Assembly: GCA_003313425.1 (NCBI GenBank)
Contig: NHZP01000010.1
Span: 1,178,001 to 1,242,000 of the forward strand
Source: Pseudopyrenochaeta lycopersici
Taxonomy: Eukaryota > Ascomycota > Dothideomycetes > Pleosporales > Pseudopyrenochaetaceae
Direction of reading: 5' to 3'
DNA: 64,000 nt
The notes under the pieces: generated by a model
What the model saw: only the letters and a program-made list of their open reading frames with translations
Database searches by the model: none
What the model was told of the DNA's origin: nothing
Shown: positions 13,316 through 51,932 of the stretch, in pieces
How the letters are laid out: each line of letters begins with the position of its first letter
Position numbering within the stretch: position 1 is the stretch's first letter
Position numbers and translations under genes: made by a program

Positions 13316-13617
13316 TGTTAGGGTTCAATCCTTTCAGGTTACTAGACGCAGGTGAAAGGGTTCAATCCTTCCAAGTTACTAGACGCAGGTGAAAGGTAAC
13401 GATCCTGCCAAGTTACTAGACGCAGGTGAAAGGTAACTGTTACCTCTTACCTTTCACCAAGCTAGGTAACTGAATCGGGACTAGCCTGCTCTAGCTCATG
13501 TATATAGGCAGCACCTCTCCCCCAAAGGTAAGAGGTATCTGCTATTTTATCCATTTCCTTTTAAATTAAGTTTCTTCAACTAAGACCGTCCTAACTATAC
13601 GTGTTAACTGCCTTACA
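13316..13617 (+). repeat. 5' LTR of element H
   Basis: Starts TGTTAGGG and ends GCCTTACA. It contains three minisatellite units and a 12-bp perfect stem GGTGAAAGGTAA (13425-13436) with TTACCTTTCACC (13447-13458), able to form a hairpin. Confidence 0.93.
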
Positions 13618-14249
13618 TAATAGCAGATTATACAGCGCTTTAGCTCCTCTCCGTAGTTAACACACAGTTACTTAAGCTGTTACCTCTTAGGTAAGTTTAA
13701 TAGTAAGGTGGTACTAACGTACTAGGACTAGATCCTATCCCCCCTTAGTTAAGCTTTAGGATAGCCCTCGCACGATAGTTAATTTACAGTGCTATCTTCT
13801 ACTGCTAGTGTAGCTAAAATTTTGTAAGCTATTCTCTCTTAGTTAAGCTTTAGGATAGCCTAGAATTTACTAGGTTTTCTTACTAGTAACCTGTTTCGCA
13901 CCTTAGTACCTACGCTTTACGCCACCTAAACGCTAGGATTATTATTAACAAGACACGTCCTATTATTCTCTTCCTTAAATAGAAACACTCTAGGGATTAT
14001 TCCTACTTTTATATACTATAGTCTATGCGTGTGTTTTAATTACGCGCACGTGCCGCCTTAAGTACGCATTTACCCTCTAAAACTTCCTAATTAGGTAATT
14101 CTCTAAACTTAGCCTATATATAACACTCCTAAGTATTTATCCTAGTCCTAGCAACCTTACCTAACTAACAACACTACTTAACTAACAGTTAAATCTTAAG
14201 TCTGCTTACTAAAGCTTAAGGATTCCCTCTAGTTTTACTTTAACTTTTA

Positions 14250-20200: not shown

Positions 20201-20590
20201 TTCCTGTGTTTTACCCTAAGCTTCTTTAGCCTGCGCCCTTAAAAGAGCTTCTAGATTAAGCGCTAGCTTAGCTAGTAGCTATTAAGGTAATTAATCCTAA
20301 CAGTAAGGTTTAAGATAAGTAGCTTATTAATAATTTTCTTAATTACTAGTAAACTAGCGTTAAAGGCCGCTGAAAGCGCGAGTGGTAGTACCTAATTAAA
20401 TAGACTGGATACCTGAAACCTACCTAGCACCCGGCAACTGAGTACCCTAACAACTACGACGCTTATCTGTTTTATTAGCGACAGCCTAATAAGCCTAAGC
20501 TACCTACTTGTCGCATGCCTCTAAATTAGTTACTACTTAACGAGGATAGGCTAGCTGCAGAAGAGTATCTTAGCGGCGACGAAGGTATCT
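14250..20590 (+). pseudogene. Element H gag-pol, RIP-destroyed
   Basis: Ty3/gypsy polyprotein. Gag is inferred for about 14250-16500 from Lys/Glu-rich, stop-broken coding texture; no zinc knuckle was identified. RT spans about 17200-18000, with VYVDY*DLNKASIKD near 17480 and the catalytic site seen as TAYLDNILVF at 17770-17800 (D to N). RNase H starts at IYIFTDILG near 18270. Integrase has a zinc finger near 19160-19310 (YYDACATYRRTKS), the first catalytic Asp near 19455 (ILVIIDCLTKRQYFF) and the second region at SIISNRSLNF near 19570. A chromodomain at about 20340-20490 carries YLIK*TGYLKPT*HPA. Each stop is TAG/TAA where Gln or Trp is expected. Confidence 0.85.
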
Positions 20591-20998
20591 AAACAGTTTT
20601 ACTTAAGTTAGCGCGCCTTAATTTGCCTCGATTTGCGCGCCTCTAGCCTCAATTCGCGCATCTATAGCCTCAAGATTACTCGCCTTCGCCCTCACTCTAC
20701 GCAGTGCGCCTCGCTTTGCGCGCCACGTCTAGGGACCTTGCAACTAAACAAAAATTACAAAGGTTACTCCTATATGTATTATACGAAGGTCTTTAGGTTC
20801 TGTTTTCGCGTCGCGGGGTAGAAGTGTTAGAAAACACCTTAGAGCTCAGCGATTTTATATAGGAAACTGTTTAGACATGCGCAGCGCTATATAAAGCCTA
20901 TTACTAGATTTACTAAGTTAGAGAGACTTAGTAGTAAACAGTTTTCTTATATTTTATCTTAAATTTTTGTCTCTTAGTTTAGAGGCCCTCACTATTTT
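20590..20998 (+). other. 3' untranslated part of element H
   Basis: About 400 bp between the end of pol and the polypurine tract. A chance 62-codon ORF (20633-20821) with repeated CTCNATTYGCGC-like words looks non-coding. No other feature seen. Confidence 0.5.
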
Positions 20999-21009
20999 AA
21001 AGGGGGGGG
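20999..21009 (+). promoter_or_regulatory. Polypurine tract of element H
   Basis: AAAGGGGGGGG followed by T, three bases before the 3' LTR. Fixes the plus orientation. Confidence 0.8.
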
Positions 21010-21012
21010 TCG

Positions 21013-21351
21013 TGTTAGGGTTTAATCCTTTCAGGTTACTAGACGCAGGTGAAAGGGTTTAATCCTTCTAAGTTACTAGACGCAGGTGAAAGGTAACGAT
21101 CCTGCCAAGTTACTAGACGCAGGTGAAAGGTAACGATCCTGCCAAGTTACTAGACGCAGGTGAAAGGTAACTGTTACCTCTTACCTTTCACCAAGCTAGG
21201 TAACTGGATCAGGACTAGCCTGCTCTAGCTTATGTATATAGGCAGCACCTCTCCCCCGAAGGTGAGAGGTATCTGCTATTTTGTCTATTTCCTTTTAAAT
21301 TGAGTTTCTTTAACTAAGACCGTCCCAACTGTGCGTGTTGACTGCCTTACA
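21013..21351 (+). repeat. 3' LTR of element H
   Basis: 339 bp with four units of the 37-bp minisatellite, against three in the 5' LTR and two in the solo LTR. Followed directly by the target duplication cttta. Confidence 0.93.
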
Positions 21352-23837: not shown

Positions 23838-24030
23838 AACCTTTAAGAGGGATAGCGCTGTTGCGGCCAGCCTTCAGAACCTTTAAGAGGGATAGCGCTG
23901 TTGCGGCCAGCCTTCAGAACCTTTAAGAGGGATGGCGCTGTTGCGGCCAGCCTTCAGAACCTTTAAGAGGGATAGCGCTGTTGCGGCCAGCCTTCAGAAC
24001 CTTAGAGAGGGATAGCGCTGTTGCGGCTAC
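23838..24030 (+). repeat. 40-bp tandem repeats in the leader of D1 (5 units)
   Basis: Five units, the last partial, of a GC-rich 40-mer with the core GGGATAGCGCTGTTGCGGCC, starting at 23838, 23878, 23918, 23958 and 23998. It lies between the 5' LTR and gag. Confidence 0.9.
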
Positions 24031-28821: not shown

Positions 28822-29199
28822 TGTGCCGTTGCACAGGGTACCTGGGCAATCAGGTGATGATGGGTTTCCTTTGTCAGCGAAATTTGATGATAAGACTTGG
28901 AGATGCGAGAGATCTCAACGTCATGCACCAAACGTGATGCACCATGCACCACACACCACGAGAATTCACTTCAAAACTGAGATTTTGCGAAGTGGCTAGT
29001 GCATTAGCTACGTTAATTTAATAAGATTTCAGACTATTTTATTTATTACTTTTAATCAGGCTCCATACTTACTTTCGTTTCTGGCAGACTGCACAGGCAG
29101 GGCTGCTCCTGTTATTCACGCACGTTTAATTCTAACGTTACCTCTCATTCACAACACCAGAACTGCGGGATTATGCCAAACCACCTTATTAACTCCACA
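28822..29199 (+). repeat. 5' LTR of D2
   Basis: 378 bp, TGTGCCGTTG...TAACTCCACA. Contains imperfect repeats of GATGCACCA near its middle. Transition-only differences from 41273-41650. Confidence 0.94.
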
Positions 29200-29382
29200 T
29201 ATAATTGCGAAGCCTAAGGGGCATAACAGTCTGTTCTAGTTAGGCTATGGCTAATAAGAGCAGAAAAAGCCTACATGGCATTAAACTGTCAACGTTGAAA
29301 ACACAAATATAAGAGCGCTATATTGCGATACAGAGATCATAGGATTACCTAGAAAGAGCTGGGTGTCTGTTTGACCCTGACA

Positions 29383-29573
29383 AACCTTTGAGAGGGATGG
29401 TGCTGTTGCGGCCAGCCTTTAGAACCTTTGAGAGGGATGGCGCTGTTGCGGCCAGCCTTCGGAACCTTTGAGAGGGATGGCGCTGTTGCGGCCAGCCTTC
29501 GGAACCTTAGAGAGGGATGGCGCTGTTGCGGCCAGCCTTCGGAACCTTAGAGAGGGATGGCGCTGTTGCGGCC
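29383..29573 (+). repeat. 40-bp tandem repeats in the leader of D2 (5 units)
   Basis: Units start at 29383, 29423, 29463, 29503 and 29543. The core GGGATGGCGCTGTTGCGGCC is the unmutated form of the D1 repeat. Confidence 0.92.
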
Positions 29574-29689
29574 ACCCCCTCTACATTTTTAGAGCCAAGA
29601 GTTGACAGGGACCAGCTCTGTTGAGGCTGTATCCTTGTTATCTTACTATGACAAATTAAGACTTCCTATATGATAAGCGGAAGCTAACT

Positions 29690-32600
29690 TAGTAACAGAA
29701 TAACAACAAGAACAAGAATAAGACAACAGAAAACAGAAACGAGAACAGCTATGAACGATTAAGAAATAATTCAGAAGTAGTACAGTATTAGATTTTAGTT
29801 AATTATCAGCGTTAGCAAGGAACTGCCTAGTAGTTGTAGTCTCCTTATTTAGTTATACCGAAGGGCTGCAGCAGCCTATTCAGGATTCAGCCTTTAGCTA
29901 TCCTCATAGCTGAATTGACACCAGATTCGCTGTTATTCAGATCAGATCTTACGCCAGCTATTAAGGTTATTGAGAAACATACTATAGATACTAGCAAAGT
30001 ACTTATGCCTATGAGGCCGGCAAGGAAAGACTTTCTATTTACAGGAAAAGACGTTACTAAGTTCCTATATGACTTCAATCGCTAGGCAGATAATAGCGGC
30101 TATAATAACTATTAAAAGATAAGAATCCTTCTAGACTTCTGTAACACTATGTGCAGAAGCTTTATTAAGAAAATAAGGCTATATAGGGTACTAGACTAGA
30201 AGAAGCTTTAAGAAGTAATAAAAGAGTATTAGCACGATTAAGATATAGCTTAACGCATGGGAACGCGAGCGTTCCTAGAGACCTATATTTCTGAGACGTT
30301 AAGAAAATTCCTAGGGCTATCTAAGTATTTAACCAACTTCGCGGCGTACAGTAACGCTTGCATTGAGACAGGCCAGCTGCATAAGACAGAGGCTGGCTTC
30401 TTTTTCGCCAGAGGCCTTCCAAGAGAAGACTAGGACATAATCTTTATCCACATGCATAAAGGACTGATTCTAGACAAGCTAGAGAGTTTTAATATTAAGA
30501 AGATTTACATGTATCTTAAGCGCGTGTACCGCTAGAGAGAGGGGATAAAACAGATATCCCCTGGCTATGCAGAAAGAGAGGCTAAGCTTGCACACTAGAT
30601 CCTGGGTCAAGAAAAGAAAATATTAACAGCTAAGCAGCTAAAAGATGTAGTTAATAACTATAAGAAAAGTAAGGTTTAAGAGGAAGCTAGGCCTGCTCTT
30701 CTACCTAGTGTAGATCTAGAGGTTTAAGACCTTATTTCAGCCCTCGGCGACTGGAAGATTAGCCTAGCTGAGGTTAACGAGATAATGGTTTATCCCAAGC
30801 TTAGTCAGATTCTGAGGAACCTAGCTACGTACGCGTACTTTATCGGCCGAGTTGTCTCAAGAGATGATGCTAAGCAGTCACTATCGGAAAGGAATGATGG
30901 CTCGTACATAATAACGGCTCCTCGCAACTTGAATCCTCAGCAAGGCGCAATCACTATCTAAGGACGTGAATATTGAAACACTTGTAATATGTACAACCTC
31001 CCTGGTTACATTGCTAGAGAATATAAGCTATATTAGCTGCTTTTATATCTTAGCTAGATTAGCTTTAAGTAGAACAGGAAAGTTAGATATAAGACTTACT
31101 ATTTTAGTCCTTCGCATAAGAGGTTAGGGCAAATCTAAGGAACTGCACTCTAAACGTTGCAGCTCTATTAGTTAAAACAGAAAATTTAGAAGTATTATAG
31201 AGTTACTAACGATGTCTTAGATTAGCTAGTATTAGCAGTATGTCTAGAGAAGTTTAATAGAGTAGACTTAAGGCCTGCTTAATATCGAAAGCTTAGACTA
31301 CTAGCTGTGCAGCAACAGAAGGTAGTTAGTCCTAATACGAATACGATTGCAGAAGATAGATATAGCAGGATAGCCATAAGCCCGGCTAAGGACCTACTAA
31401 ACTTTTAGAATGTTAGGATATTACCAAGAGGCTCAACTAAAGCGTGTTTTGCCCTCGATAAGGTTACATCTTAGGACATTATTCTTAGTGCTTTTAAGGA
31501 AGGAGCAGTAAATGCTCGCTTAACTTATGCAGTAACACGCTCTTAAACGCGTTAGAATGTCGGGAAAGATCTAGTTCTTAAGAAAGTTAGGCAGAGCAAA
31601 GTTCAGAAGCAAGCTCCTGCTAAACCTCCTTATTCTAAACAACTAAAGCGAGTTATAGTTAAGGACCATCGTATGCCTGTTATAAGGGGCAACACTACAT
31701 TCAAACTAATAGATATTAAGGAGTTTGAACAAGTAGAGCTAATTCTATTCGCTAGCTAAGCCTATAATAAGCCATTCTCTCTTATACAGCCTCTAGACGA
31801 CAATAGAAGCTTTTAGGATTTAAAAGCTAAGCCTAAATTTATTAGTTAGAATAAGAAAAAGAAGAACTAGAATAACAGCCTTACTAATATAGAGCTCTGT
31901 TATTTGCTAGGCCTGTATCTAAACTGTATCACTACTACTATACTGCGTTAGGAGGTGCGTAGTGTAACTTTTAGGGACCTTATAAGCTAACATTAGCTTT
32001 AAAAATAAGTTGGAAATATATTGAAAGCGATTAATAAGCCTGCTGCGTTGTTAGCTAGCGTAAACGCTGTAGAATTGAGTATTGGGCCGGCCAGCTAATC
32101 AGCAATCGCCAGGTCAGCTAAGCAAGACCTGTTAGAACCTGATTAGCTGACACTGTAGTGCCTTACCCCGCACAACCCTACGTCTGCCTATGTCATTAGG
32201 GATATTCGGAGGCATTTTTCTAATAAAGAAAAGGTTAAATTAAATTAAGTAGAGATAGTTAGTCTTAAAAAAGGACCGAATTTAGAGCTTAACTTAATAT
32301 AATTTAGAACTTTTAATGCATAAACTAGGCATAAAGCCCCAGGAACATATAACACTTAGCATAAAGCTTTAGTTAATCCTACTAAATAAGAAGCCACGAT
32401 AATTTAAAAGAAGATAGGCATAGCCTACGTACAGTGTAACCTTCTAACCTGCTAGGCCTCATTTAATAGGCATACAGTAAAGTGTCTTATTAACACTAGC
32501 GCACAGATAAACCTTTTAAGATATAGTGCGGCCAAGGCATTAAAGCTTACATATAAAGACTATAAGCAAGGTAGCTCGCATTAAGATAGAGTAGTTACTG

Positions 32601-35600
32601 CAAATAGAAGCACTAATCCTTTTATAGGAACTGCGTGGAGTGTCCTAGTCAAAGTAGGAGAGGTGACTGTTATCAGTCACTTCAGGATCGTTCGAAACCT
32701 AACAAGATCAGCGATTTTAGGTAGACCTTAGTACGCTTTAGTAAGGTTATTAATTCAGTATAACGTATATAGAAGGATTACATGCAGGATTATTTCTAAG
32801 AATAGAGACAGGAACACCGTCTTTATAGCCTCTGATCCTGCTCTGCTACATCTAAGAGACTATATACTAACTCCTGAAGATAAGGAAAACACGTAGCAGA
32901 CACCCTTTCTAGGGAGGAGTGTCTAGATTTAAGTAGAAGATACCCAGGACAATATTTTAGTTCAGAATCTTATTTATCTTATGCTTAGGTTAAGTATATT
33001 CAGGAGGCTGAGTTTATTAAAGCTTCTGTTGGATTTAGCGAATTTTCACCTATTTTTACGACTAACAATAAGCAGCAATTTAAAGAATAGGCAAAGCAAG
33101 TAATAAGCTATGCGGTTAGAGCCTCTAAGGATCCTTTAGCTATGCGAGAATTAGAGTCTTTTTCAGTTATGTGTGAACTCAACCGTCAGGCGCAATAGGA
33201 AAAGAGAAGGAAGTGCACAGACAGTTAGGTCAATACCCTGCATAAGAGAGTAGCTGACAAGGTACGACCTGTAGATATTCCTGCGGCATCAGATATTAAG
33301 GAGTTTAGGCGTAAGGATTAGAAGTGACATACTGTTAAACTGCAACTCTTAAGAAAAAGTCTAAGACCTCCTAATATAGGGCCTTTTAATCACCTTTTTA
33401 AATGCAGACATACAGCATTCCTACAAGGCACAAGATTAACACTAGAAAGGCTAGCCTTACAAAAGTTTAGATCTAAGTTAACAAAATTAGAAGTTTAGCT
33501 ATTTATTAAAATATTAATAAACAGAGAAGGCGCGATCGCTTTCACTTTCTCTAAGACAGGACGAATTATTAAGGATATATATCCTCTATATAAGATACAG
33601 ACTATTAAACATAAAGCTTAGTAAGAAAAATCATTCCTAATAGCGCGAGCTGTTAAGGAAGAGGTAGTTACAATATTTAATAACAGACTTAATAGAGGGG
33701 TACTAGAAAGATGCGCCAGTTAGTACAGAAACTTATAGTTTCTAGTTAAAAAGAAGGATAAGAGTTATCAGATAATACTTAAGTTAATTAAGATAAACGC
33801 AGTATCTCTTAGGGATGCTAATCTGCCTCTAACAGCAGATAAATTCTCTAAGCGTTTTAGTAGATGTTGTATTCTATCTCTTATAGATCTATTCTTAGGA
33901 TATAACTAGATTACACTTTATCTAGACAGCAGAGATATAACTGCCTTTTATACGCTAGTTAGTTTGCTTTGATACTATACAATAGTTCAAGGCGCAACTA
34001 ACTTAGTTGCAGTCTTTTAGTAAGTAGTTACAAAGATTATAAAGGATTATTAGCTATATACTATTCCTTTTATAGACAACATTACTGCTAGCGGTCCTAA
34101 AACTAACTATAGAGGAGAAGAAGCATTTCTTAGAGTAAGAAGATATATATTAGAATATATTTAGCAGCTAGATAGGGCTCTAGCTAACGTAGAAAGAGCT
34201 GGAGCTACAGTTTCAGGCAAGAAGTATTATTAGGGAGTCTCTAGATTAGGGGTAGTTAGATATAAAGTTACTGCGCAAGGGAGATATCTAGATTAATAGA
34301 AAGTAGCTAAGATTCTAGATTAGCTAGAATGTAGAAATGTGAAAGAAGTAAGGGTGTTTATAGGTATCTGTGTCTACTACAGGATATAGGTGCCTAGCTT
34401 TGCTATTCGCGCGAAGCCCCTATTCTAGTTAATAAGGACTAGCGTTAAATAGACATAGCAGGGGGCTTAATAAGAGGCTATGCGTACCTTAAAGTAATAT
34501 ATTACTTTAGCCTTAGCGTTAGCGAGTCCTAATTATAAGAATAGAGGTATACTTTTTATAGTAGTAAACGCGAGTAAGGAAGGCGTAGGCGCGTCTCTTA
34601 AACAGATTAGAGCAGACGGAAAAAGACATCCGTGTTAATTTAAAAGTATAATATAGTTAAAAGCTAAGAGTCTCTAGTACTTAATAAAGCTTAAGTGTAA
34701 GGCAGTATTATAGGCGCTAAAGAAATTTAGAACCTAGCTATATAGACAACATTTTACTATTAAAACGGACGCTCAGACGCTTATTTATTAACTTAACAGA
34801 TTATCGCCTGACGTTCCTAGGTTAGTCCAAAACAGGTAGCTCGCAGCTATCCTTACTTAGGACTTTAACATTAAGTATGTTCCTAGAAAGAAGAATATCG
34901 TTCCTAATGTGTTGTTACGATATCTGAAGCTAGAAGGATAGGAACAGCCAGACGAGACTAAAGACAACCTTAAAGATTTCATTAAAAACCTAGTTACTAA
35001 CCTTAAGTTTGCCTCGCCTGCTAAGACGAGTAGGGTACTAAATAAGCAATACTCAGACGAGTTAGAAGCGATTGCTTAGTTCTTAATAAGATTTAAGAAG
35101 CCTGAAGGCCTTACGAGGGCATAACTTTAAGCGTAGAAAAAGAGGGCGATAAATTTCTTTGTGCGAGAAGGCTATCTGTTCTGAAAGTCTATAAGGAATA
35201 TAGCTATTTATTAAGTTGTAGATAATCCTAATCTAAAGACTGTAGCTATATAGGAAGTATATTAATAGATTAGTTACAGAGGAGTGAACAGCGTCTATTT
35301 AATACTTGCTTAATAATACTAGTAGGAAAGGATATATAAGGAGGTGCGACGCACAATTGTATTATGTAAACAGTGCCAGCGGAGATTATTAAGTCGCAAG
35401 TAAGAGATACTAATAAATACCTACTATTACGTATTATAGGAACGAGTTACTATAGACGTTGTTTACATGCCGCATTATTAAGGAAAGAAATTTATTATAA
35501 TTGCACAAGAATACTTAAGTAGATAGCTAGAGGCACAAGTAATAGCTAATAATAAGTTATCTACTGTTGCTAAGTTTTTATATAAGGAAATCTTGTGTTA

Positions 35601-36640
35601 CTAGAGTATAATAAGGACACTTACTATAGACAGCGGACCTAATTTTAGAAAGGTAGTTAAAGCCCTTACTAAGATTTATTGTATTAAGAGGATCTAGGTA
35701 TTAGTATATAACCCTTAGGCTATAGGAAAAATTAAGGGTAGTTACAAGCTAATATATAACGCACTGGCAAAGCTTCCTGGACCTTAGGTTAATAATCTTC
35801 TAATAGTATTGTAGGCAGACAGAATTTCTACTTAGAGTTAGACTAGATATTCTCCTTATTAGTTAGTTACTAGTTAGAATCTAGTACTTCCGATTAAGCT
35901 TGCTCTTCTAATATAGTAGATATTGCTATTTAGATAAGTAACATTAAGAGGCTAGTTATTAGCAGTGCGAGCTATGCAGTTAGATTTAAGAGATTAATTT
36001 CTTAAGGACGCAGTGTTGAGAACTAAGCGCCTACGACGCGAAAAGAAGGAATATTAGGACGATTACAGGGAGATTCGTTAAGAAGAAATTAAAGACAATA
36101 ACTTCGTACTAATGTAGAACTTAGCTAGAGATATTAATATGTTAAGAGATAAGAAGCTTACGAATAGATAGCTAGGACTATATAAAGTCTTTTATACTAA
36201 CTAGGATAGAGGCAACTATTAACTTATAGACCTTGACAGCACGTAATTTAGAAACACTACCCTAGGATAGAGACTTAAACTATAGGTACTTTAAGATAAA
36301 AGCGAGGTCGCTTAGGAGTATTAAGGTCGTGTAAAGTTATAGGATCCTTCGTTGTGGAATGCTGAAGCTAACTTTTTACTGCCGCCTGCTTAATCTAACA
36401 ACTCTTAAGACAATAAGTTTATAGTTATTAAGAATCCTAACTAAGACGCGATTTAGTCACAAGAGAAAGAGAATAATCCTCCTACAGACTTAGATTTATC
36501 TGAAGATATAATACAGCTAACTACGCGCAGCTATCCTATTATTATACTAAGATCTTTAACAGAGACTAAGAGATAATAATATGTTTAAATACCTAATTTA
36601 GAAATTAATTCTAACTTAGAAGATAAGCTTACTTAAGCCT
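29690..36640 (+). pseudogene. D2 gag-pol (gag, protease, RT, RNase H, integrase), RIP-damaged
   Basis: Ty3/gypsy polyprotein. Gag holds KVIEKHTIDTSKVLMPMRPA near 29965 and a CX2CX4HX4C knuckle at 30983-31024, read as CNMYNLPGYIAREY. Protease is at about 32480-32900 (LINTSAQINLL, then FRIVRNLTRSAILGRP). RT runs about 33520-34370, with LIDLFLGYN and PFIDNITAS (catalytic DD read as DN). The connection EVRVFIGICVYYR is near 34350. RNase H starts at ILFIVVNASKEGVGASLKQI (about 34550). Integrase has a zinc finger near 35270-35400 (VLCKQCQRR), the first Asp at RVTIDVVYMP, the second at TLTIDSGPNF and the third region at NPQAIGKIKGSYK. A GPY-like module follows (RQLGLYKVFYT). No chromodomain was found. 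Gag and protease share one frame; RT onward is in the -1 frame, as in copy F. The 5' limit is approximate. Confidence 0.85.
32092..32149. repeat. 58-bp inverted-repeat motif, site 1 in D2 (inside gag-protease)
   Basis: Perfect 11-bp arms CAGCTAATCAG (32092-32102) and CTGATTAGCTG (32139-32149) around a conserved core. The same motif recurs after pol and near the 3' LTR of the same element. Confidence 0.8.
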
Positions 36641-36642
36641 AG

Positions 36643-37377
36643 GGGACAGGCTTTTATCTTAAAGCAGGGGAGGGGCTGTATTTCCTTTATTAAATTTTCG
36701 CATATTTTTACACATTTAGTATTACACACACGCAGCGTAACCTCCTAGACACATAAAAATAAGTTAAAATTAAACAAAACATTATTTAGAGTCGCTGGGA
36801 GGTTAATCTCCTTACTGCGCGATTAAAAATAGTAGAGAAACTAGGGTATTAAAGAATCTAGCTAATTAGCAATCGCTAGGTAAGCTTAGCGAGACCTGCT
36901 GAAATCTGATTAGCTAGATAACTTAATATCTGCGCTAACAGCTGTAACGCAACCACGAGGCTACAGAGCGACAATTCAAAGATGCAGAATTAATTAAAGG
37001 AGGTAGAAGATAAGATAATTAATGTTTTAAAGTGTAAAGGTAAGTTTATAGCTGCGTTTAGCAGTAAGATAAGACCTGCTTAGGAAACGTTCCTAAGTAG
37101 CCAACTCTTAAGAGGACCCGCTATGCTAGCTAATTAGGTAATAGGAAGGAGTTAAAATAATAGTAACTTTACCTTTTACTACGTTAACGAGCCTTAGCAA
37201 AGCTTTTAAGTAAAGTTAGGGAGGGAAAGATACCCTCTACTGCTTAAACCCCCTCTAAATCTTAAGCCTGTAGTTGATCCTACAGGGCCTAAGTTTCTCT
37301 TTCTTACTTCCTGTTACTATCTATTAAAACTTTCTAAGGTAAACACACAAGTGCCTGTTAGGTACAAACTTTAAGCG
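36643..37377 (+). other. Spacer between pol and the third gene in D2
   Basis: About 735 bp without a convincing frame. It contains the second 58-bp inverted-repeat motif (36859-36916) and a GC-poor 3' part ending just before the ATG at 37378. A promoter or internal ribosome entry for the third gene could lie here, but no motif shows it. Confidence 0.5.
36859..36916. repeat. 58-bp inverted-repeat motif, site 2 in D2 (after pol)
   Basis: TAGCTAATTAG ... CTGATTAGCTA arms around AATCGCTAGGTAAGCTTAGC. Same length as site 1. Confidence 0.75.
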
Positions 37378-40300
37378 ATGTCACAGCCACCTCAGACACC
37401 CAAACAGCCTAGGAAGCGTCCACCCCTACTGTCAAACCCAAATCCTTAACTAACTACGACTATAATTAAGCCTGCGCTAACAGAGATCGTGCAATTTACT
37501 AGTAAAGAAGCTATTAAAGACTACAGAACTAAGCTTAAGCGTTATAGTAACGTTAAAGTCCCTTAGCACGCAGGGATTACAGTAGACACTTAGGTTTAAA
37601 ACTTACTATAAGCCTCGCCTGTTAAACAGAAGGGCATAGTAGATAATTAGATAGTAGCCTTAGCAACTTACTTTAATAAGACTTCAACCCTTATTATCGC
37701 GACTAGAGAATTTCTAAAAGGAAGACTAAGCCTAATGTCGCAGTATAGAGGTATCGCTGCTTTTAAGCAGTAATATCCTATACTTAAGGACATAGACACT
37801 TATAAGAAGAAGAGGAAAAAGGAGACAGAGAGCGCGTTTGCCTATCTGGACGAACACCATCAGCATATACTAAGGCAGGTCCTCATTCTATATTCTGTTC
37901 AGGTAGTGTACTCGCACTCTAGCGTGACGGCAGTCTAATAGTTATTACGCAGGACCTCGCTGGACAACCTCGCTCCCTTCCTTAACACAGCTCTTTACTA
38001 TTAACGATAATCTGCAAGGAGGAGACAGGATAGATTTATTAATATTACTAACTAGGAAGAAGTACGTTAGCAGATAGCTAACATGCCTGCTTAGATAAAG
38101 AAGCATTATAAGGACGGTAACGCCGAGTTGCGCAGTATCATTAATAAGTACAAGATACCTGCCTCTAAGATTACAGCTAACAATATAGACACGCGCTCTA
38201 GACAAGGGTACCTTAACTAGATATTCTAGACAGAGGCAATCAAATAGTATAGAAAGTAATTACATGTAGGGACGAAGCTTCCTCTAAATGTGCCTATTCC
38301 ACCTAAGTGGCTGCAGGAGAATTATTTCAGGTATTATAAGCAGACTAAGTTACTTCTTCCTACTGCTAGCAATAGTAAGAACGATTCTGCGACTAAGGCT
38401 AGCGTCTAGACGACAGCCTTAGCGATAACTGCCTCTAAACGTGCTAGAAGCTAAAGCCTAGCTACTTTATTAAACATTAGAGGGCGCACGCAAGTTATTA
38501 AGCCTTCTAGTCTTAGTTATTAACGCATAAGCAAAGAATTTAGAAGCGACATCTAGAATAAGCTAGAGAAGCTAGGCGAGCCTCAAACAGACAGGCTATC
38601 TGTTACAGCTGAAAGCATTCAAGAAATCTAGCCAGAAGAACAACGTTTAAGAGGAAACAGGCGCACTTAATAACAAGTTAAGGCAGTAGAGGCCCTTTAA
38701 GAGAAATTCCGTCTTAGGCGGCGTTAGAGATTTCCCTCTACGCAGCCTCTTACTCTAGATAAGATTCGCGTAAGAGACTTAGAGTTAGTAAGGCAGTTAC
38801 GCGAAGAGTTAGAAATACTACTAGTAACACTTAATAACAGTATTAACGTTTAAGACTCAATTAAAGAAGACATCTTGCTTAAAACTAGCATTGCAGTAAA
38901 ATCGCGTAAGGGATGTAACTGTATAAACAAACAGTCTGCTCTAGTTAAGATAACCGCGTCGCTTACGTCTAGGAAGTTGAATAATAGTAAGCGCGTCTAG
39001 CTAATTAATACCTAGTATCAAGAGTGTGTGAATTTCAGCACTCTTAAGGATAGGCAGGGTAGTTAGGTATTTAACTATCGCAGGGTGTGCTGGCAATATT
39101 ACTGTTACGTAGCTAGTAAGATAGGCCTGCTTACTTAAAGCCTTAGCATTTTAAACATAGTTTAGCTACTTAAGATACTATACTATCGTTAGGATTAATA
39201 GGGTCAGCTTTAATCAGACCTAGTAACTTAAGTTCTGTTCTTAGCCCCGTTTTAAGGAGACTATACGCATTAAGACCTAAAGAGCTATTGTTATCGCCCA
39301 GCAAAAGTTTGAGTCCAAATTAACTGGGACGAAGTTACTAAGGCTCTTGATTAGGGAGTATATGTTAAAGCATTTAAGGAGTACGGCAGTATTACCTACG
39401 ATGCCTTTAGCTGGATTTTTGAGGATCCTGAGCTGGTCTTAATCCTTGATTAGAGTTTTGACATGTACCTCTACTACACGCGGTTAATTGATGGTAAGAG
39501 TAACCTTAGCTAGTATTGGGTAATGTATTATTCGTTGATACAGTAGCTTGTGCGTAGTAACGTTAAGTATTGGCTGCTGTACGCAGTCTTGCGAAAAGAG
39601 CCTAACCTAATTTCTTACCCTTACTACACGAAATACACTAAGCCTAGGGATAGGACTTACTTCCGTCACATTAACTTGAATATCTCTGAGGCTGTGTACT
39701 CAGGCAGGGGTGTAGATATTATCTAAGGAAGCGTCTCTTTTAATAATAAAGATAAAGATAACTATACGTAGATACTACGTAGCTTTTATAATATTATCTA
39801 TAAGTACTAGAACTAGCGGGAAAACTCAGGACTTAAGAACTCTACTGGTTATATTAAGGGATAGGACGATAAGAGGGACTGGCTAGAGAATTATAGTGCG
39901 AAATTCCCTAACGTCGAATGGTTTAGTTAGCCTTACAAGGCTAGTCACGTCCGCATCTCTAATCCTAGGCTGCCTTATAGATCTACTAGGCCTGTAACTA
40001 AGCAACGACGAACTATCTTGCCTTAGTTTGTTAAGGTAGAAGAGGATATAACTACGATAAAGATTCCTGAGATGGGCTCCTATTAAGAGCTCGCTGCTGC
40101 CTTTTAAAGCTTAACTGCCGCGCTAAAGTTACCGTCTGGACACTTAAATTACTATAGCGGCGTTAAGTGGGCCTTTCCTGGAGATATTACACTAGTGTAC
40201 TTATTAAACATTGCTAAGGCTGTGAACTGTTAGCTAAGATAGGATTCTCCGCTAGTTTTAGAGGAACTGACTGACTTGTTTACAGATTAGCCTAACCCTG

Positions 40301-40839
40301 GTTTAATCTGTCAATTTATTAAGGATACTAGGAAGGCTATAGTAAAGATAATTAAAGAGTATTAGGTTATCTGCCAGCATTATAAGAAGCTTGCTTTTAG
40401 GGAAGACAAAGACATCAGCGTACCTAACAGGTCGTTCTTCTTAAATAAAGGTATAAATCCAGCTTAGGAAGCTGAGTGGTGGAAGCACGATAGGCAGGTT
40501 AAATAACGTACTGCCCTAGACAAGGTTCTTGAGGAGCTTTCTGATAATCCTGATAGTAAGGCTGCTAGGATGCTGGACAGGAAGGAGAAACCGAGGCGCC
40601 TGTCCATCCGAAGCGCAACTAAGTCTCCACAGACTTCAACTCATGCTAGTTTACAAAGGTCGTTATCGCAGCAACAGGCGCTAGGTCAGTATTCGCCTGG
40701 TCAGTCACCTATGGGACCTCCTCCTGCGCCTTCTCGTCCTGGGCAAGCGCAACCTGACATGAGCGCGTCAAATCTGCATGCACCGTCGCAGACTCCTCGT
40801 CGTAGCAAGAGGATTAAGGAGATCAAGAAGAAGAAGTGA
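37378..40839 (+). pseudogene. Third gene of family D in D2: 1153-codon accessory protein with possible HxD...H motif, RIP-damaged
   Basis: One frame runs from ATG 37378 to TGA 40837, 3462 nt, broken only by RIP-type TAG/TAA. The final 90 codons (40570-40839) are fully open. It lies downstream of pol on the same strand and is not part of gag-pol. Visible features are a Pro-rich N-terminus (MSQPPQTPKQPRKRPP) and a Lys/Arg-rich region near residue 150 (YKKKRKKETES). A Cys cluster follows (C513-x-C515, C550, C571, C576; RRVCWQYYCY). Next is TYFRHINLNIS at residues 761-771, where H764-x-N766 is probably HxD before mutation, then GRGVDIIQGSVSFN and LRSFYNIIY with Y804 probably His before RIP. The Pro/Gln/Ser-rich tail ends SKRIKEIKKKK, a likely nuclear localisation signal. 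The HxD...H spacing resembles 2-oxoglutarate/Fe(II) oxygenases, which is tentative. It is not an obvious envelope: no signal peptide or clear membrane helix. Function unknown. Confidence 0.7.
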
Positions 40840-41259
40840 GGATGATTTGGCTGCACTATCAAGAGCCTAGCTAATCAGCAATCGCTAGGTGAGGCTTGAC
40901 AGACTCTGATTGGCTGAGTGCCTCTAGGTCGTTCAAGGGATACTAGGACGATGGCATACTTGCCAGCGTCTTCAACAGTGAGGTTAAGGCGCGTTTTCTT
41001 TTGTTTTTCCTACTGTCTTTAAGAGATTTAACGATGAAGTGCGAGAGTTTATGAAGGAACCTGCACGATTACGAGGACTGCTCCTCCTGCAGAAATGCAG
41101 CTCATGCTGCCTTCCCTTTGTTCGTGGGGCAACGATTTCTTTCTTTCCTTTCTTTTTTGTGTGTCTTTTCTTAGCTCTCTTCTCCTCCTGCTAATAGTTC
41201 TGCTTATGAAGAGAAGGAATAATAAGCAGGATTTGTGAGCTCAATAGGACTGAGCTCGA
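40840..41259 (+). other. 3' untranslated region of D2
   Basis: Nearly free of RIP. Contains a shorter (49-bp) copy of the inverted-repeat motif at 40868-40916 and pyrimidine-rich runs near 41140-41190. No gene seen. Confidence 0.6.
40868..40916. repeat. Inverted-repeat motif, site 3 in D2 (before 3' LTR, 49 bp)
   Basis: TAGCTAATCAG ... CTGATTGGCTG arms around AATCGCTAGGTGAGGCTTG. Third occurrence of the motif in one element. Confidence 0.75.
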
Positions 41260-41272
41260 AGTAGGGGAGGTT
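41260..41272 (+). promoter_or_regulatory. Polypurine tract of D2
   Basis: AGTAGGGGAGGTT abuts the 3' LTR. The same sequence, reversed, abuts the E LTR at 45018-45030. Confidence 0.8.
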
Positions 41273-41650
41273 TGTGCCGTTGCACAGGGTACCTGGGCAA
41301 TTAGGTGATGATGGGTTTCCTTTGTCAGCGAAATTTGATGATAAGACTTGGAGATGCGAGAGATCTCAACGTTATGCACCAAACGTGATGCACCATGCAC
41401 CACACACCACGAGAATTCACTTTAAAACTGAGATTTTGCGAAGTGGCTAGTGCATTAGCTACGTCAATTTAATGAGATTTCAGACCATTTTGTTTATTAC
41501 TTTTAATCAGGCTTCATACTTACTTTCGTTTCTGGCAGACTGCACAGGCAGGGCTGCTCCTGTTATTCACGCACGTTTGATTCCAACGTTACCTCTCATT
41601 CACAACACCAGAACTGCGGGATTGTGCCGAACCACCTTGTTAACTCCACA
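41273..41650 (+). repeat. 3' LTR of D2
   Basis: 378 bp, mate of 28822-29199. Followed directly by atag and the interrupted RT/RNase H connection of D1. Confidence 0.94.
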
Positions 41651-44639: not shown

Positions 44640-45017
44640 TGTAGAGTTAACAAGGTGGTTCAGCACAATCCCGCAGTTCTGGTGTTGTGAATGAGAGGTA
44701 ACGATGGAATCCAAACGTGCGTGAATAACAGGAGCAGCTCTACCTGTGCAGTCTGCCAGAAACGAAGGTAAGTATAGAGCCTGATTAAAAGTAATAAACA
44801 AAATGGTCTGAAATCTCATGAATTAACGTAGCTAATGCACTAGCTACTTTGCAAAATCTCAGTTTTGAAGTGAATTCTCGTGGAGTGTGGTGCATAGTGC
44901 ATCACGTTTGGTGCATGAGGTTGAGATCTCTCGCATCTCTAAGTTTTATCACTAAATTTCGCTAACAAAGGAAACCTATCATCACCTAATTGCCTAGGTA
45001 CCTTGTGTAACGGCACA
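44640..45017 (-). repeat. 3' LTR of copy E
   Basis: 378 bp, reverse of the family D LTR: begins TGTAGAGTTAAC (mutated TGTGGAGTTAAC) and ends AACGGCACA. The reverse polypurine tract follows at 45018. Confidence 0.92.
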
Positions 45018-45452
45018 AACCTCCCCTACTTCGAGCTTAGTCCTATTAAGCTTATAAATCCTACTTATTATTCCTTCTCTTTATAAGCAGAACTATTAGC
45101 AGGAGGAGAAGAGAGCTAAGAAAAGACACATAAAAAAAAGAAAGGAAAGAAAGAAATCGTTACCCTACGAACAAAGAGAAGGCAGCATAAGCTGCATTTC
45201 TGCAGGAGGAGTAGTCCTCGTAATCGTGCAGGTTCCTTTATAAACTCTCGCACTTTATTATTAAATCTCTTAAAGACAGTAGGAAAAATAAAGGAAAACG
45301 CGCCTTAACCTTACTGTTAACGACGCTAGTAAGTATGCTATCGTCCTAGTATCCTTCGAACAACTAGAAGGCACTTAGCCAATCAGAGTCTGTTAAGCCT
45401 CACCTAGCGATTGCTGATTAGCTAGGCTCTTGATAGTGCAGCTAAATCATCC
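45018..45452 (-). other. Polypurine tract and 3' UTR of copy E
   Basis: Reverse match to 40840-41272 of D2, including the short inverted-repeat motif near 45375-45427. It keeps the full UTR that copy F has partly lost. Confidence 0.75.
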
Positions 45453-48400
45453 TTACTTCTTCTTCTTAATCTCCTTAATCCTCTTGCTACGACGAGGAGT
45501 CTGCGACGGTATATACAGATTTAACGCGCTTATATCAGGTTGCGCTTGCCCAGGATAAGAAGGCGCAAGAGGAGGTCCTATAGGTAACTAACCAGGCGAA
45601 TATTAACTCAGCACCTGTTACTGTAATAATAACCTTCGTAAACCAGCATAAGTTAAAGTCTATAGAGACTTAGTTACGCTTTAGATAGACAGGCGCCTTA
45701 GTTTCTCCTTCCTGTCCAGCATCCTAGCAGCCTTACTATTAGGATTATTAGAAAGCTCCTTAAAAACCTTGTCTAGGGCAGTGCGTTATTCAACCTGCCT
45801 ATCGTGCTTCTACTACTTAGCTTCCTAAGCTAGATTTATACCTTTATTTAAGAAGAACAACCTGTTAGGTACGCCGAGGTCTCTATCTTTACTAAAAGTA
45901 AGCTTCTTATAATACTAGTAGACAACCTAATACTCTTTAATTATCTTTACTATAGCCTTCCTAGTATCCTTAATAAATTAATAGATTAAACTAGGATTAG
46001 GCTAATCCGTAAACAAGTCTATTAGTTCCTCTAAAACTAGCAAAGAGTCCTATCTTAGCTAACAGTTTACAGCCTTAGTAATGTTTAACGAGTATACTAG
46101 TGTAACATCTCTAGGAAAGGCCTACTTAACGCCTCTATAGTAATTTAAGTATCTAGAAGGTAACTTTAGCGCGGCAGTTAAGCTTTAAAAGGCAGTAGCA
46201 AGCTCTTAATAGGAGCCTATCTTAGGAATCTCTATCGTAGTTATGTCCTCTTCTACCTTAACAAACTAAGGCAAGATAGTTTATCGTTACTTAGTTACAG
46301 GTCTAGTAGATCCATAAGGCAGCCTAGGATTAGAGATGCAGACGTGACCAGCCTTACAAGGCTGACTAAACTATTTAACGTCAGGGAATTTCGCACTGCA
46401 ACTCTCTAGCCAGTCCCTCTTATTATCCTATCCCTTAATATAACTAGTAGAGTTCTTAAGTCCTAAGTTTTCTCGCTAGTTTTAGTACTTATAGATAATA
46501 TTATAAAAGCTACGTAGTATCTGCGTATAGTTATCTTTATCTTTATTATTAAAAGAGACGCTTCCTTAGATAATATCTACACCCCTGCCTAAGTACACAG
46601 CCTTAGAGATGTTTAAGTTAATATAACAGAAGTAAGTCCTATCCCTAGGCTTAGTGTATTTCGTGTAATAAGGGTAAGAAATTAGGTTAGGCTCTTTTCG
46701 CAAGACTGCGTACATTAGCTAATACTTAACGTTACCACGCACAAGCTGCTGTATTAACAAATAATACATTACCCGACACTAGCTAAGGTTACTCTTACTA
46801 TTAATTAGCCGCGTGTAGTAGAGGTATATATTAAAACTTTAATTAAGGATTAAGACTAGCTTAGGATCCTTAAAAATCTAGCTAAAGGCGTTGTAGGTAA
46901 TACTGCTGTACTCCTTAAATGCTTTAATATATACTCCCTAATTAAGAGCCTTAGCAACTTTGTCCTAGTTAATTTAGACTTAAACTTTTACTAGGTAATA
47001 ATAATAGCTCTTTAGGTCTTAATGCGTATAGTCTCCTTAAAACAGGGCTGAGAATAGAACTTAAGTTACTAGGTCCGATTAAAGCTAACCCTATTAATCC
47101 TAACAATAGTATAGTATCTTAAGCAGCTAAACTATGTTTAAAATACTAAGGCTTTAAGTAAGTAGGCCTATCTTACTAGCTACGTAACGGTAATATTACT
47201 AGCACACCCTGCGATAGTCGAATACCTAACTACTCTACCTATCCTTAAGAGTGCTGAAATTCACACACTCTCAATACTAGGTATTAATCAGCTAGACACG
47301 CTTACTATTATTTAACTTCCTAGACGTAAGCGACATAGTTATCTTAACTAGAGCAGACTGTTTATTTATACAGTTACATCCCTTACGCGATTTTACTGTA
47401 ATGCTAGTTTTAAGCGAGATGTCTTCTTTAATTAAGTCTTAAACGTTAATACTATTATTAAGTATTACTAGTAGTATTTCTAACTCTTCGCGTAACTACC
47501 TTACTAACTCTAAGTCTCTTACGCGAATCTTATCTAGAGCGAGAGGCTATGTAGAAGGAAATCTCTAACGCTGCCTAAGACAGAATTTCTCTTAAAGGGC
47601 CTCTACTGCCTTAACCTATTATTAAGTACGCCTATTCCCTCTTAAACATTATTCTTCTAGCTAGATTTCTTGAATGCTTTTAGCTGTAACAGACAGCCTG
47701 TCTGTTTAAGGCTTACCTAGCTTCTCTAGCTTATTCTAGATGTCGCTTCTAAATTCTTTACTTATACGTTAATAACTAAGACTAGAAGGCTTAATAACTT
47801 ACGTACGCCCTCTAATATTTAATAAAGTAGCGGGGCTTTAGCTTCTAGTACGTTTAGAGGTAGTTATCGCTAAGGCTGTTATCTAGACGCTAGCCTTAGT
47901 CGCAGAATTATTCTTACTATCGCTAGCAGTAGGAAGAAGTAACTTAGTCTGCTTATAATACCTAAAATAATTCTCCTATAGCTACTTAGGTAGAATAGGC
48001 ACATTTAGAGGAAGCTTCGTCCCTGCATGTAATTACTTTCTATACTATTTGATTGCCTCTATCTAGAATATCTAGTTAAGGTACTCTTATCTAGAGCGCG
48101 TGTCTATATTATTAGCTGTAATCTTAGAGGCAGGCATCTTATGCTTGTTAATAATGCCGCGTAACTTAGCGTTACTATCCTTATAATACTTCTTTATCTA
48201 AGTAGGTATATTAGCTATCTACTAACATACTTCTTCCTAGTTAGTAATATTAATAAATCTATCCTGCCTCCTCCTTACAGATTATTGTTAATAGTAAAGA
48301 GCTGTGTTAAGGAAGGGAGTAAGGTTATCTAGCGAGGTCCTGCGCAGTAACTATTAGACTGCTGTTACGCTAGAGTGTAAGTATACTACCTAAATAGAAT

Positions 48401-48914
48401 ATAGAATAAGAACTTACCTTAGTACATGCTAATAGTATTTGTCCAGATAGGTAAACGCGCTCTCTATCTCCTTTTTCTTCTTCTTCTTATAAGTATCTAT
48501 GTCCTTAAGTATAAGATATTACTGCTTAAAAGCAGCGACGCCTCTATACTATAATATTAGGCTTAGTCTTCCTTTTAGAAATTCTCTAGTTACGATAATA
48601 AGGGTTAAAGTCTTATTAAAGTAAGTCGCTAAGGCTACTATCTAATTATCTACTATACCCTTCTATTTAACAGGCGAGACTTACAGCAAGCTTTAAACCT
48701 AAGTATCTACTATAATCCCTACGTACTAAGGGACTTTAACGTTACTATAACGCTTAAGCTCAGTTCTGTAGTCTTTAATAGCTTCTTTACTAGTAAATCG
48801 CATAATCTCTATTAGCGTAGGCTTAATTATAGTCGTAGTTAGTTAAGGATTTAGGTTTAATAGTAGGGGTAGACGCTTCCTAGGCTGTTTAGGTGTCTAA
48901 GGCAGCTGTAACAT
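45453..48914 (-). pseudogene. Third gene of family D in copy E, RIP-damaged
   Basis: Start codon at 48914-48912 and stop at 45455-45453 give 3462 nt, exactly the length in D2 and F. The frame is broken only by TAG/TAA. The metal-site region near 46620 reads FCYINL, so the Arg-His of D2 is mutated to Cys-Tyr by C-to-T changes. Same domain layout as the D2 copy. Inactive as it stands. Confidence 0.7.
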
Positions 48915-49650
48915 CACTTAAAGTTTATACCTAACAGGCACTTATGTATCTACCTTAGAAGGTTTTAATAGATAGTAATAAGAAGTAAGAAAGAGAAACT
49001 TAGGCCCTGTAGGATCAACTACAGGCTTAAGATTTAGAGGGGGTTTAAGTAGTAGAGGGTATCTTTCTCTCTCTAACTTTACTTAAAAGCCCTGCTAAGG
49101 CTTATTAACGTAGTAAAAGGTAAAGTTACTATTATTTTAACTCCTTCCTGTTACCTAATTAGCTAGCATAGCAGGTCCTCTTAAGAGTTAGCTACTTAAG
49201 AACGTTTCCTAAGCAGGTCTTATCTTACTACTAAACGCAGCTATAAACTTACCTTCACACTTTAAAATATTAATTATCTTATCTTCTACCTCCTTTAATT
49301 AATTCTACATCTTCAAATTGTCGCTCTGTAGCCTCGTGGTTACGTTGCAGCTATTAGCGCAGATATCAAGTTATCCAGCCAATCAGATTTCAGCAGGTCT
49401 CGCTAAGCTCACCTAGTAATTACTAATTAGCTAGATTCTTCAACACCCTAGTTTCTCTACTATTTTTAATCGCGCAGTAAGGAGATTAACCTCCCAGCGA
49501 CTCTAAATAATATTTCGTTTAATTTTAACTTATTTTTATATATCTAGGAGGTTACGCTGCGTGTATGTAATACTAAATATGTAAAAATATGCGAAAATTT
49601 AATAAAAGAAATACAGCCCCTCCCCTACTTTAAGATAAAAGCCCGTTTCT
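48915..49650 (-). other. Spacer between pol and third gene in copy E
   Basis: Reverse match to 36643-37377 of D2, including the 58-bp inverted-repeat motif at about 49376-49433. No gene seen. Confidence 0.65.
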
Positions 49651-51932
49651 TAGGCTTAAGTAAGCTTATCTTCTAAGTTAGAATTAATTTCTAAATTAGG
49701 TATTTAAACATATTATTGTCTCTTAGTCTCTGTTAAAGATCTTAGTATAATAATAGGATAGCTGCGTATAGTTAGCTATATTATATCTTTAGATAAATCC
49801 AAGTCTATAGGAGGATTATTCTCTGTCTCTTGTAACTAAATCACGTCTTAGTTAGGATTTTTAATAACTATAAACTTATTATCTTAAGAGTTATTAGATT
49901 AAGCAGGCGGTAGTAAAAAGTTAGCTTTAGCATCCTATAATAAAGGATCCTATAGCTTTACACAACCTTAATACTTCTAAGCGACCTTACTTTTATCTTA
50001 AAGTACCTACAGCTTAAGTCTCTATCCTAAGGTAGTATTTCTAAATCGCGTGCTGTTAAAGTCTATAAGTTAATAGTTACCTTTATCCTAATTAGTATAA
50101 AAGACTTTATATAGTCCTAGCTATCTACTCGTAAGCTTCTTATCTCTTAATATGTTAATATCTCTAGCTAAGTCCTATATTAGTACGAAGTTATCTTCTT
50201 TAATTTCCTCTTAACAAATCTCTCTATAATTATCCTAATATTCCTTCTTTTTGCGTCGCAGGCGCTTAGTTCTTAACACTACGTCCTTAAGAAATTAATC
50301 TCTTAAATCTAGCTGTATAGCTTGCACCGCTAATAACTAGCCTCTTAATATTACTTATCTAAATAGTAATATCTGCTATATTAGAAGAGTAAGCTTAATT
50401 AGAAGTACTAGATTCTAACTAGTAACTAACTAATAAAGAGAATATCTAGTCTAACTCTAAGTAGAAATTCTGTCTACCTATAATACTATTAGAAGATTAT
50501 TAACCTAAGGTCTAGGAAGCTTTACTAGTGCGTTACATATTAGCTTGTAACTACCCTTAATTTTTCCTATAGCCTAAGGGTTATATACTAATACCTAGAT
50601 CCTCCTAATACAATAAATCTTAGTAAGGGCTTTAACTACCTTTCTAAAATTAGGTCCGCTGTCTACAGTAAGTGTCCTTATTATACTCTAGCAATACAAG
50701 ATTTCCTTATATAAAAACTTAGCGACAGTAGATAACTTATTATTAGCTATTACTCGTGCCTCTAGCTATCTACTAAGGTATTCTTATATAATTATAATAA
50801 ATTTCTTTTCTTAATAATACGGCATGTAAACAACGTCTATAGTAACTCGTTCCTATAATATATAATAGTAGGTATTTATTAGTATCTCTTACTTATAACT
50901 TAATAATCTCCGCTAGCACTGTTTACATAATATAATCGTGCGTTGCACCTCCTTATGCATCCTTTCCTACTAGTATTGTTAAGCAAGCATTAAATAGACG
51001 CCGTTTACTCTTCTATAACTAATCTATTAATATACTTTCTATATAGCTACAGTCTTTAGATTAGGATTATCTATAACTTAATAAATAGCTATATTCCTTA
51101 TAGACTTTTAGAATAGATAGCCTTCTCGCATAAAGAAATTCATCGCCCTCTTTTTTTACACTTAAAGTTGTGCCTTTGTAAGGCCTTTAAGCTTCTTAAA
51201 TCTTATTAAGAACTAAGTAATTACTTCTAACTTGTCTAAGTATTGCTTATTTAGTATCCTATTTATCTTAGTAGGCGAGGCAAACTTAAGGTTAGCGACT
51301 AGGTTTTTAATAAAATCTTTAAGGTCGTCTTTAGTCTCGTCTAGCTGTTTCTATCCTTCTAGCTTCAGATATCGTAACAACGTATTAGGAATAATATTCT
51401 TCTTTCTAGGAATATACTTAATATTAAAGTCCTAAGTAAGGATAGCTGCGAGCTACCTGTTTTAGACTAACCCAGGAACGTTAGGCGATAATCTATTAAG
51501 TTAATAAATAAGCGTCTAAGCGTCTGTTTTAATAGTAAAATATTATCTATATAGCTAGGTTCTGAATTTCTTTAGCGCCTATAATACTGCCTTGCACTTA
51601 AGCTTTATTAAGTGCTAGAGACTCTCAGCTTTTAACTATATTGTACTTTTAAATTAACACGGATGTCTTTTTCTGTCTGCTCTAATCTGTTTAAGAGACG
51701 CGCCTGCGCCTTCCTTACTCGCGTCTACTACTATAAAAAGTATACCTCTATTCTTATAATTAAGACTTACTAACGCTGGGGCTAAAGTAATGTATTACTT
51801 TAAGGTACGCATAGCCTCTTATTAAGCCCCCTGCTATGTCTATTTAACGCTAGTCCTTATTAACTAGAACAGGAGCTTCGCGCGAATAGCAAAGCTAGGC
51901 ACCTATATCTTGTAGTAGACACAGATACCTAT
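49651..51932 (-). pseudogene. Copy E RNase H and integrase half of pol, RIP-damaged
   Basis: Reverse match to 41651-43935 and to 34362-36640. Read leftward it starts at the connection motif GICVYYRI (51932) and gives RNase H (about 51790-51350), the integrase zinc finger (about 51050-50890), the catalytic region (about 50860-50530) and the GPY-like module. The upstream half is displaced by insertion of F at the atag site. Confidence 0.8.

Follow-up and report, generated by a model that had tools for sequence, protein, structure and literature searches.

A fungal Ty3/gypsy-type retrotransposon with a conserved third gene predicted to encode an Fe(II)/2-oxoglutarate-dependent dioxygenase

The 64,000 nt stretch of the Pseudopyrenochaeta lycopersici genome analysed here (contig NHZP01000010.1, positions 1,178,001 to 1,242,000, forward strand; hereafter the window) carries a 12.8 kb Ty3/gypsy-type long terminal repeat (LTR) retrotransposon at 28822–41650, in which a third gene lies between pol and the 3′ LTR. 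Prediction strongly supports the product of this gene as an Fe(II)/2-oxoglutarate-dependent dioxygenase of ~1,150 residues, and a gypsy lineage in fungi seems to have acquired and retained such an enzyme. The order of the element is LTR, gag-protease, pol, a gap of ~740 nt, the third gene, ~430 nt and LTR. A previous, sequence-only reading of the window had noticed three copies of the gene, all of which are present at the positions and orientations it gave:

37378–40839, + strand: third gene, copy 1, predicted Fe(II)/2-oxoglutarate dioxygenase, 1154 codons
45453–48914, − strand: third gene, copy 2, in an element inserted in the opposite direction, 1154 codons
60408–63869, + strand: third gene, copy 3, 1154 codons

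The same reading took the three copies to be independent. Self-comparison shows that nested copies of one LTR element fill the window from ~23.3 kb to its end, and the three are nested insertions of one family rather than scattered loci.

A DNA search of the host's own genome (62.7 Mb, 188 contigs) gave 168 first-look candidates; 40 places were scored and 30 copies aligned. The third gene is a real gene, as shown by the frame-specific lack of fixed stops. In its own frame (+1), 122 codon columns carry a stop in at least one copy but just one column carries a stop throughout (TAG in 28 copies, TAA in 2), whereas the other five frames have 42, 72, 32, 55 and 60 columns that are stops in every copy. 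The commonest non-stop codon at the 121 partly-stop columns is CAG (42), CAA (33), TGG (27), CGA (15) or another codon (4). The base after a C/T column is A in 291 of 417 cases, and the base before a G/A column is T in 259 of 428, the CpA pattern of repeat-induced point mutation (RIP). Stops had been described as TAG and TAA only; TGA also occurs in frame, twice in the first copy. It had further been argued that the absence of length changes marked a real gene, and that true indels (insertions or deletions) or stops of non-RIP origin would speak against one. The 30 copies show no indel within the frame and the one all-stop column, and the gene is real, but the absence of indels is weak by itself and was rejected as proof of coding because the whole element is nearly free of them (an alignment of two element copies spans 12.2 kb and has 8 gap openings); the contrast in fixed stops is decisive.

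RIP makes no transversions. When each transversion was counted once, with its direction set by majority and the expectation taken from ten copies, 43 replacements and 20 silent changes were found against 84% replacements expected (p = 0.0019). Transversions are depleted for replacements, so purifying selection acted on the third gene as the family spread. The frame opens with ATG in 28 copies and with ATA in the other 2. Copies differ in length only by an indel of ~53 nt (40839–40891) that starts with the final base of the stop codon and divides them into two sets of 15; the stop is TAA in the 15 shorter copies, and TAA (9), TGA (5) or CGA (1) in the 15 longer ones. In each of the 30 copies the pol end precedes the gene and an LTR follows it, which bears out the description of an LTR retrotransposon with a conserved, sense-strand third gene between pol and the 3′ LTR. 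Very probably, this is a gene that the element has kept for a long time.

Residues 620–1040 of a copy from the same genome, with stops written as X, retrieved 45 relatives in a protein search, with E-values from 2.7e-174 to 5.4e-34. Many are metagenome proteins, while those with named sources come from Alternaria tenuissima, Periconia digitata, Sclerotinia borealis, Aspergillus granulosus and several Penicillium; one is named by its source Phytanoyl-CoA dioxygenase (PhyH). In the numbering of relative P0002, the iron triad HxD...H and the 2-oxoglutarate (2OG)-binding arginine correspond to H773, D775, H876 and R886, and all four are present in 43 of the 45. H773 is found in every relative and D775 in 44 (one has N); H876 and R886, the latter ten residues after the former, are each found in 44, with a gap at both positions in the other. 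Four further residues, C524, C526, C580 and H583, form a CxC...CxxH cluster that is complete in 43 relatives. At the motif columns the 30 own copies have no states other than H/Y, D/N, R/Q/stop and C/Y, that is, the motif or its RIP product. The possible metal site proposed from the letters of the window is, by the alignment of the relatives, the Fe(II) site of a 2OG dioxygenase, and the cysteine cluster proposed there is the conserved CxC...CxxH; the enzyme class was not foreseen. The product also has a basic tail in the window copies. These features map to the first copy as follows:

38914–39099, + strand: CxC...CxxH cluster, zinc-site-like (codons at 38914, 38920, 39088 and 39097; column mapping)
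39331–40344, + strand: dioxygenase (double-stranded beta-helix) domain, approximate limits transferred from P0002 residues 661–998
39667–39675, + strand: iron-binding HxD columns (H at 39667, D at 39673; column mapping)
39976–40008, + strand: distal iron-binding His (39976) and 2OG-binding Arg (40006) columns (column mapping)

Fold prediction gives a double-stranded beta-helix, and the top structural matches are DUF1479/PhyH proteins (YbiU, GIG2; PDB 4rgk, 7twe, 6akz) and antibiotic or amino-acid hydroxylases. The DUF1479/PhyH enzymes share 10–13% identity with the product and differ from it in being stand-alone proteins of 409–451 residues without the N-terminal domain. Pfam PhyH (PF05721) matches 20 of the 45 relatives at E ≤ 1 (best 3e-5), and in the own copies it scores 14.5 and 12.6 bits in two of the five scanned, below the 22-bit cut-off. 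DUF1479 tops the structural matches yet is absent among the 25 of 29 Pfam families listed for the relatives. Tet_JBP is also absent among those families and TET/JBP among the structural matches listed, and an own-genome search for PF12851 gave no match, though its control matched nowhere either. Membership of AlkB was rejected, as the RxxxxxR motif is incomplete: position 892, six after R886, is a nearly invariant Trp in the 45 relatives. The predicted layout is a helical N-terminal domain without a recognised fold, the CxC...CxxH cluster, and a PhyH/DUF1479-like double-stranded beta-helix with HxD...H...R. We have high confidence in the dioxygenase fold and the metal site, and the product is probably an active enzyme.

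The gene is found beyond this one family. A second family in the same genome has the same gene order, with identical 328 bp LTRs at 84418–84745 and 95893–96220 of contig C74, and is 31% (gag), 47% (pol) and 35% (third gene) identical to the window element. It has a sister copy on contig C23 (LTRs 97.9% identical), and pol followed by the third gene is also seen at C60 and at C23:506–516 kb, with no LTRs in the stretch examined. A search with pol returned 224 proteins at E ≤ 1e-100, the best 120 of which were used for comparison; named relatives among the matches listed are from Stemphylium, Alternaria, Periconia and Pyrenophora, and the best have RVT_1, RNase H-like and H2C2 domains. These names and the RIP pattern by themselves point to a fungus, probably of pleosporalean kinship. 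Matches to pol and to the third gene lie on contigs of exactly the same size, namely 14013 (8 contigs on both sides), 13150, 12508, 88587 and 218926 nt. The last is from Alternaria tenuissima and has adjacent locus tags, AA0114_g10630 (pol) and AA0114_g10631 (third gene). By this indirect measure, equal contig size, the third gene probably stands after pol in five other contigs. A host gene captured once by this copy lineage, the alternative raised in the sequence-only reading, does not match its presence after pol in the second family and, probably, in these contigs. The relatives from Penicillium, Aspergillus and Sclerotinia have no pol partner among the best 120 of the 224 pol matches. More distant relatives (P0017–P0045; 33–50% identity over part of the protein) come from Penicillium, Aspergillus, Sclerotinia borealis and metagenomes; one of these clusters represents 30 sequences, and some may be multi-copy.

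Across eight pol/third-gene pairs the identities of the two proteins are correlated (r = 0.90, Mantel p = 0.0016), as they are in the seven pairs left when the near-duplicate from C23 is dropped (r = 0.78, exact p = 0.011). The mean identity of the seven is 63% for pol and 38% for the third gene, so that the third gene evolves faster. In a pol tree of 57 rows, all eight linked rows fall within one 18-row clade (SH-like approximate likelihood ratio test, SH-aLRT, 99), and the simplest reading is one capture of the third gene at or before the base of that clade.

The remaining parts of the element carrying copy 1 are:

28822–29199, + strand: 5′ LTR, starting TGTGCC and ending CCACA (self-comparison and junctions)
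29999–32929, + strand: gag and protease frame, RIP-degraded, 31% identical to the same region of the second family
~32456–32722, + strand: aspartyl-protease-like stretch (Pfam gag-asp_proteas, E 0.002, below cut-off)
32983–36633, + strand: pol frame with reverse transcriptase (RT)/RNase H and integrase zinc domain (Pfam RT_RNaseH, E 1.3e-13; Integrase_H2C2, E 0.033, below cut-off)
36634–37377, + strand: gap between pol and the third gene, with stops common to 30/30 copies in all three forward frames
41272–41650, + strand: 3′ LTR (self-comparison and junctions)

The LTR pair has the TG...CA ends and the target-site duplication expected of an LTR retrotransposon, and RT_RNaseH precedes H2C2 in the window, which is the Ty3/gypsy order. 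The pol frame runs to 36633, ahead of the first stop common to all 30 copies at 36634, and because the gap that follows has such stops in every forward frame, the third gene is a separate frame from pol. The element sits inside another copy of itself (23274–44639), with a 4 bp duplication, ATAG, on both sides. The minus-strand copy (44640–51932) carries a further insertion, from 51933 onward. Two insertions lie at one and the same ATAG site, at position 34360 of the first copy, and are oriented opposite to their target strands, while a third lies ~30 bp 5′ of the third gene, at 37348. A search for the pattern of the first junction gave 8 places, mostly with differing flanks, and only the window's own was placed inside an element copy. 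A direct repeat with 80 bp spacing occurs just within the 5′ end of the element (23838–24027 and 29383–29577). The window holds a second Ty3/gypsy-type element at 13320–21351, with LTRs of ~298 bp that are 93% identical and a heavily RIPped gag-pol that is open to near the 3′ LTR; it has no third gene comparable to 37378–40839.

The level of RIP differs along the family. The fraction of CpA/TpG sites in the RIP state is 0.55 in the third gene (9134 of 16746 cells), 0.46 in the 3′ noncoding region and 0.16 in the 3′ LTR (321 of 2060), and in each of the 30 copies the 3′ LTR has a lower value than the interior. In two window copies the 5′ LTRs diverge to the same extent as the internal part (0.073 and 0.054–0.089 transitions per site, respectively), sparing of the LTR is weak in the second family, and the element at 13320–21351, the single control without the third gene, has LTR RIP indices like those of its interior. 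LTR sparing is not part of the main claim made here, since the 5′ LTRs and the second family disagree and one control is too few.

Comparison with known systems draws on excerpts of the papers cited. Ty3/Gypsy elements of the orchid Phalaenopsis carry an open reading frame (ORF) for an AlkB-type 2OG dioxygenase, and the protein demethylates N6-methyladenosine in single-stranded RNA in vitro (PMC9289625). Both they and the present element are Gypsy elements with an added 2OG/Fe(II) dioxygenase ORF, but the orchid elements are from a plant, ~25 kb long and ALKBH5-like with RxxxxxR (PMC9289625), whereas this one is fungal, 12.8 kb and PhyH/DUF1479-like. The second AlkB arginine is replaced here by Trp, and the helical domain and CxC...CxxH are additional. 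Fungal DNA transposons carry TET/JBP dioxygenases, which have been argued to provide escape from methylation-based silencing and RIP-like mutation, and the excerpt remarks explicitly that no retrotransposon carries TET/JBP (PMC12730594). Those are likewise fungal mobile elements with a 2OG dioxygenase, but the carriers are DNA transposons and Helitrons (PMC12730594) and not, as here, a retrotransposon whose gene product has PhyH/DUF1479 as its nearest fold. The Boty retrotransposon of Botrytis has an extra gene, brtn, between pol and the 3′ LTR (Zhao et al. 2011, as cited in PMC7264820 and PMC4227169); compared by description, it is also a fungal gypsy-type element with an extra gene in this position, but brtn is antisense and the third gene is sense. 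Fungal Gypsy elements with a dUTPase or an extra ORF of unknown function have been described as well (PMC2864245); these too have an extra enzyme or ORF, but the enzyme is a different one and they are chromodomain lineages, and the word dioxygenase has 0 occurrences in the text of that paper. The open-access literature, to which the search was confined, yielded no fungal LTR element that carries a 2OG or PhyH-like gene, and no open-access paper was found that joins phytanoyl-CoA dioxygenase, retrotransposon and Ascomycota. Mobile elements with a 2OG dioxygenase are known; within the open-access literature searched, a fungal LTR element with a PhyH/DUF1479-like one would be new.

How the enzyme might serve the element can be proposed as follows. 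An ancestor of the Ty3/gypsy clade would have captured the dioxygenase gene, which the clade then passed on together with gag-pol. The product may act in the nucleus, where it would oxidise a mark for silencing or mutation on methylated DNA, methylated RNA or a chromatin protein, and removal of the mark would protect the element from RIP or from silencing based on RNA or methylation. Demethylation of the element's RNA would be an alternative route, comparable to that of the orchid Gypsy AlkB protein. The host genome has matches to C5-DNA-methyltransferase in three regions, and old element copies are full of RIP. Our best guess is that the third-gene product removes a mark linked to silencing or RIP from nucleic acid or chromatin. 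The chances of the whole chain, in which a captured, active nuclear dioxygenase helps the element by oxidising a mark, are evenly balanced, and those of a counter-silencing role fall slightly short of even.

Several observations weigh against this proposal. The copies are heavily RIPped despite carrying the third gene, and nothing links the protein to nucleic acid directly. PhyH-type enzymes are mostly small-molecule oxygenases, as are most of the PDB matches listed. The N-terminal domain resembled no known nucleic-acid-binding fold in the structural search, a protein search with residues 1–500 found no relative at E ≤ 1, and a profile search of solved structures found no dioxygenase at E ≤ 1. 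Many Copia RT matches in the same genome have long open frames without any stop, in contrast to the heavily RIPped gypsy family; as far as seen, Copia elements (dioxygenase content not examined) thrive here without such a gene. In view of these stop-free RTs, RIP may now be weak, or selective by age. As to a single capture, the label 'linked third gene' is not clustered beyond chance in the 57-row pol tree (7 changes, a number as low in 128 of 500 shuffles), since a state can be assigned to only a minority of rows, and the 8-row third-gene tree has two starred branches only and long branches for two rows.

The same fold and motif evidence would also suit an enzyme acting on protein, one that adds hydroxyl groups to, or removes methyl groups from, a histone, Gag or integrase and thereby directs integration or the chromatin state of the new copy. 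The third gene adjoins integrase, and copies are nested in each other with two joined at the same 4 bp site. Two insertions are, however, too few to indicate a choice of site, the window's own being the only one of the 8 pattern places put in an element copy, and no histone- or integrase-binding domain occurs among the 25 of 29 Pfam families listed; we consider a protein substrate rather unlikely. A small-metabolite substrate, with the gene as captured cargo of indirect benefit to host or element, is suggested by the nearest solved structures, which are DUF1479/PhyH proteins and antibiotic or amino-acid hydroxylases. The long linked inheritance with pol and the multi-copy presence argue against it, as do the helical domain and the CxC...CxxH cluster kept in 43 of 45 relatives, which the matched enzymes (mostly 240–450 residues) would not need, and its probability is likewise low.

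A protein that retains the fold for binding or structure without catalysis is very improbable given that HxD, the distal His and the Arg are complete in 43 of 45 relatives. Some relatives from Penicillium, Aspergillus and Sclerotinia borealis, without a pol partner among the best 120 of 224, could be host genes; nonetheless, a host gene carried once by this copy lineage was rejected, and is scarcely credible, in the face of the second family (pol 47%, third gene 35% identical), the linked contigs and the co-divergence of pol and third gene. The sense strand and the position after pol would fit an envelope or other surface protein. The sequence-only reading saw no obvious envelope here, rightly so: the predicted dioxygenase fold and motif led us to reject this alternative, whose likelihood is practically nil.

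Filamentous ascomycetes defend their genomes chiefly by RIP and cytosine methylation, and how elements escape these defences can be studied with the predicted dioxygenase of this gypsy clade, a testable protein whose natural relatives include uninterrupted ones. The case indicates that mobile elements have captured 2OG oxygenases other than TET and AlkB, and it accounts for a class of long fungal 'hypothetical proteins' as element genes; the third-gene family could also bring a new kind of substrate to a large enzyme superfamily. It is possible, if doubtful, that a whole fungal Ty3/gypsy clade carries its own eraser of nucleic-acid or chromatin marks, outside TET/JBP and AlkB, kept against methylation-dependent silencing or RIP. 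If true, RIP would have an antagonist encoded by a retrotransposon, and the 2OG enzymes would gain a new class that modifies nucleic acids.
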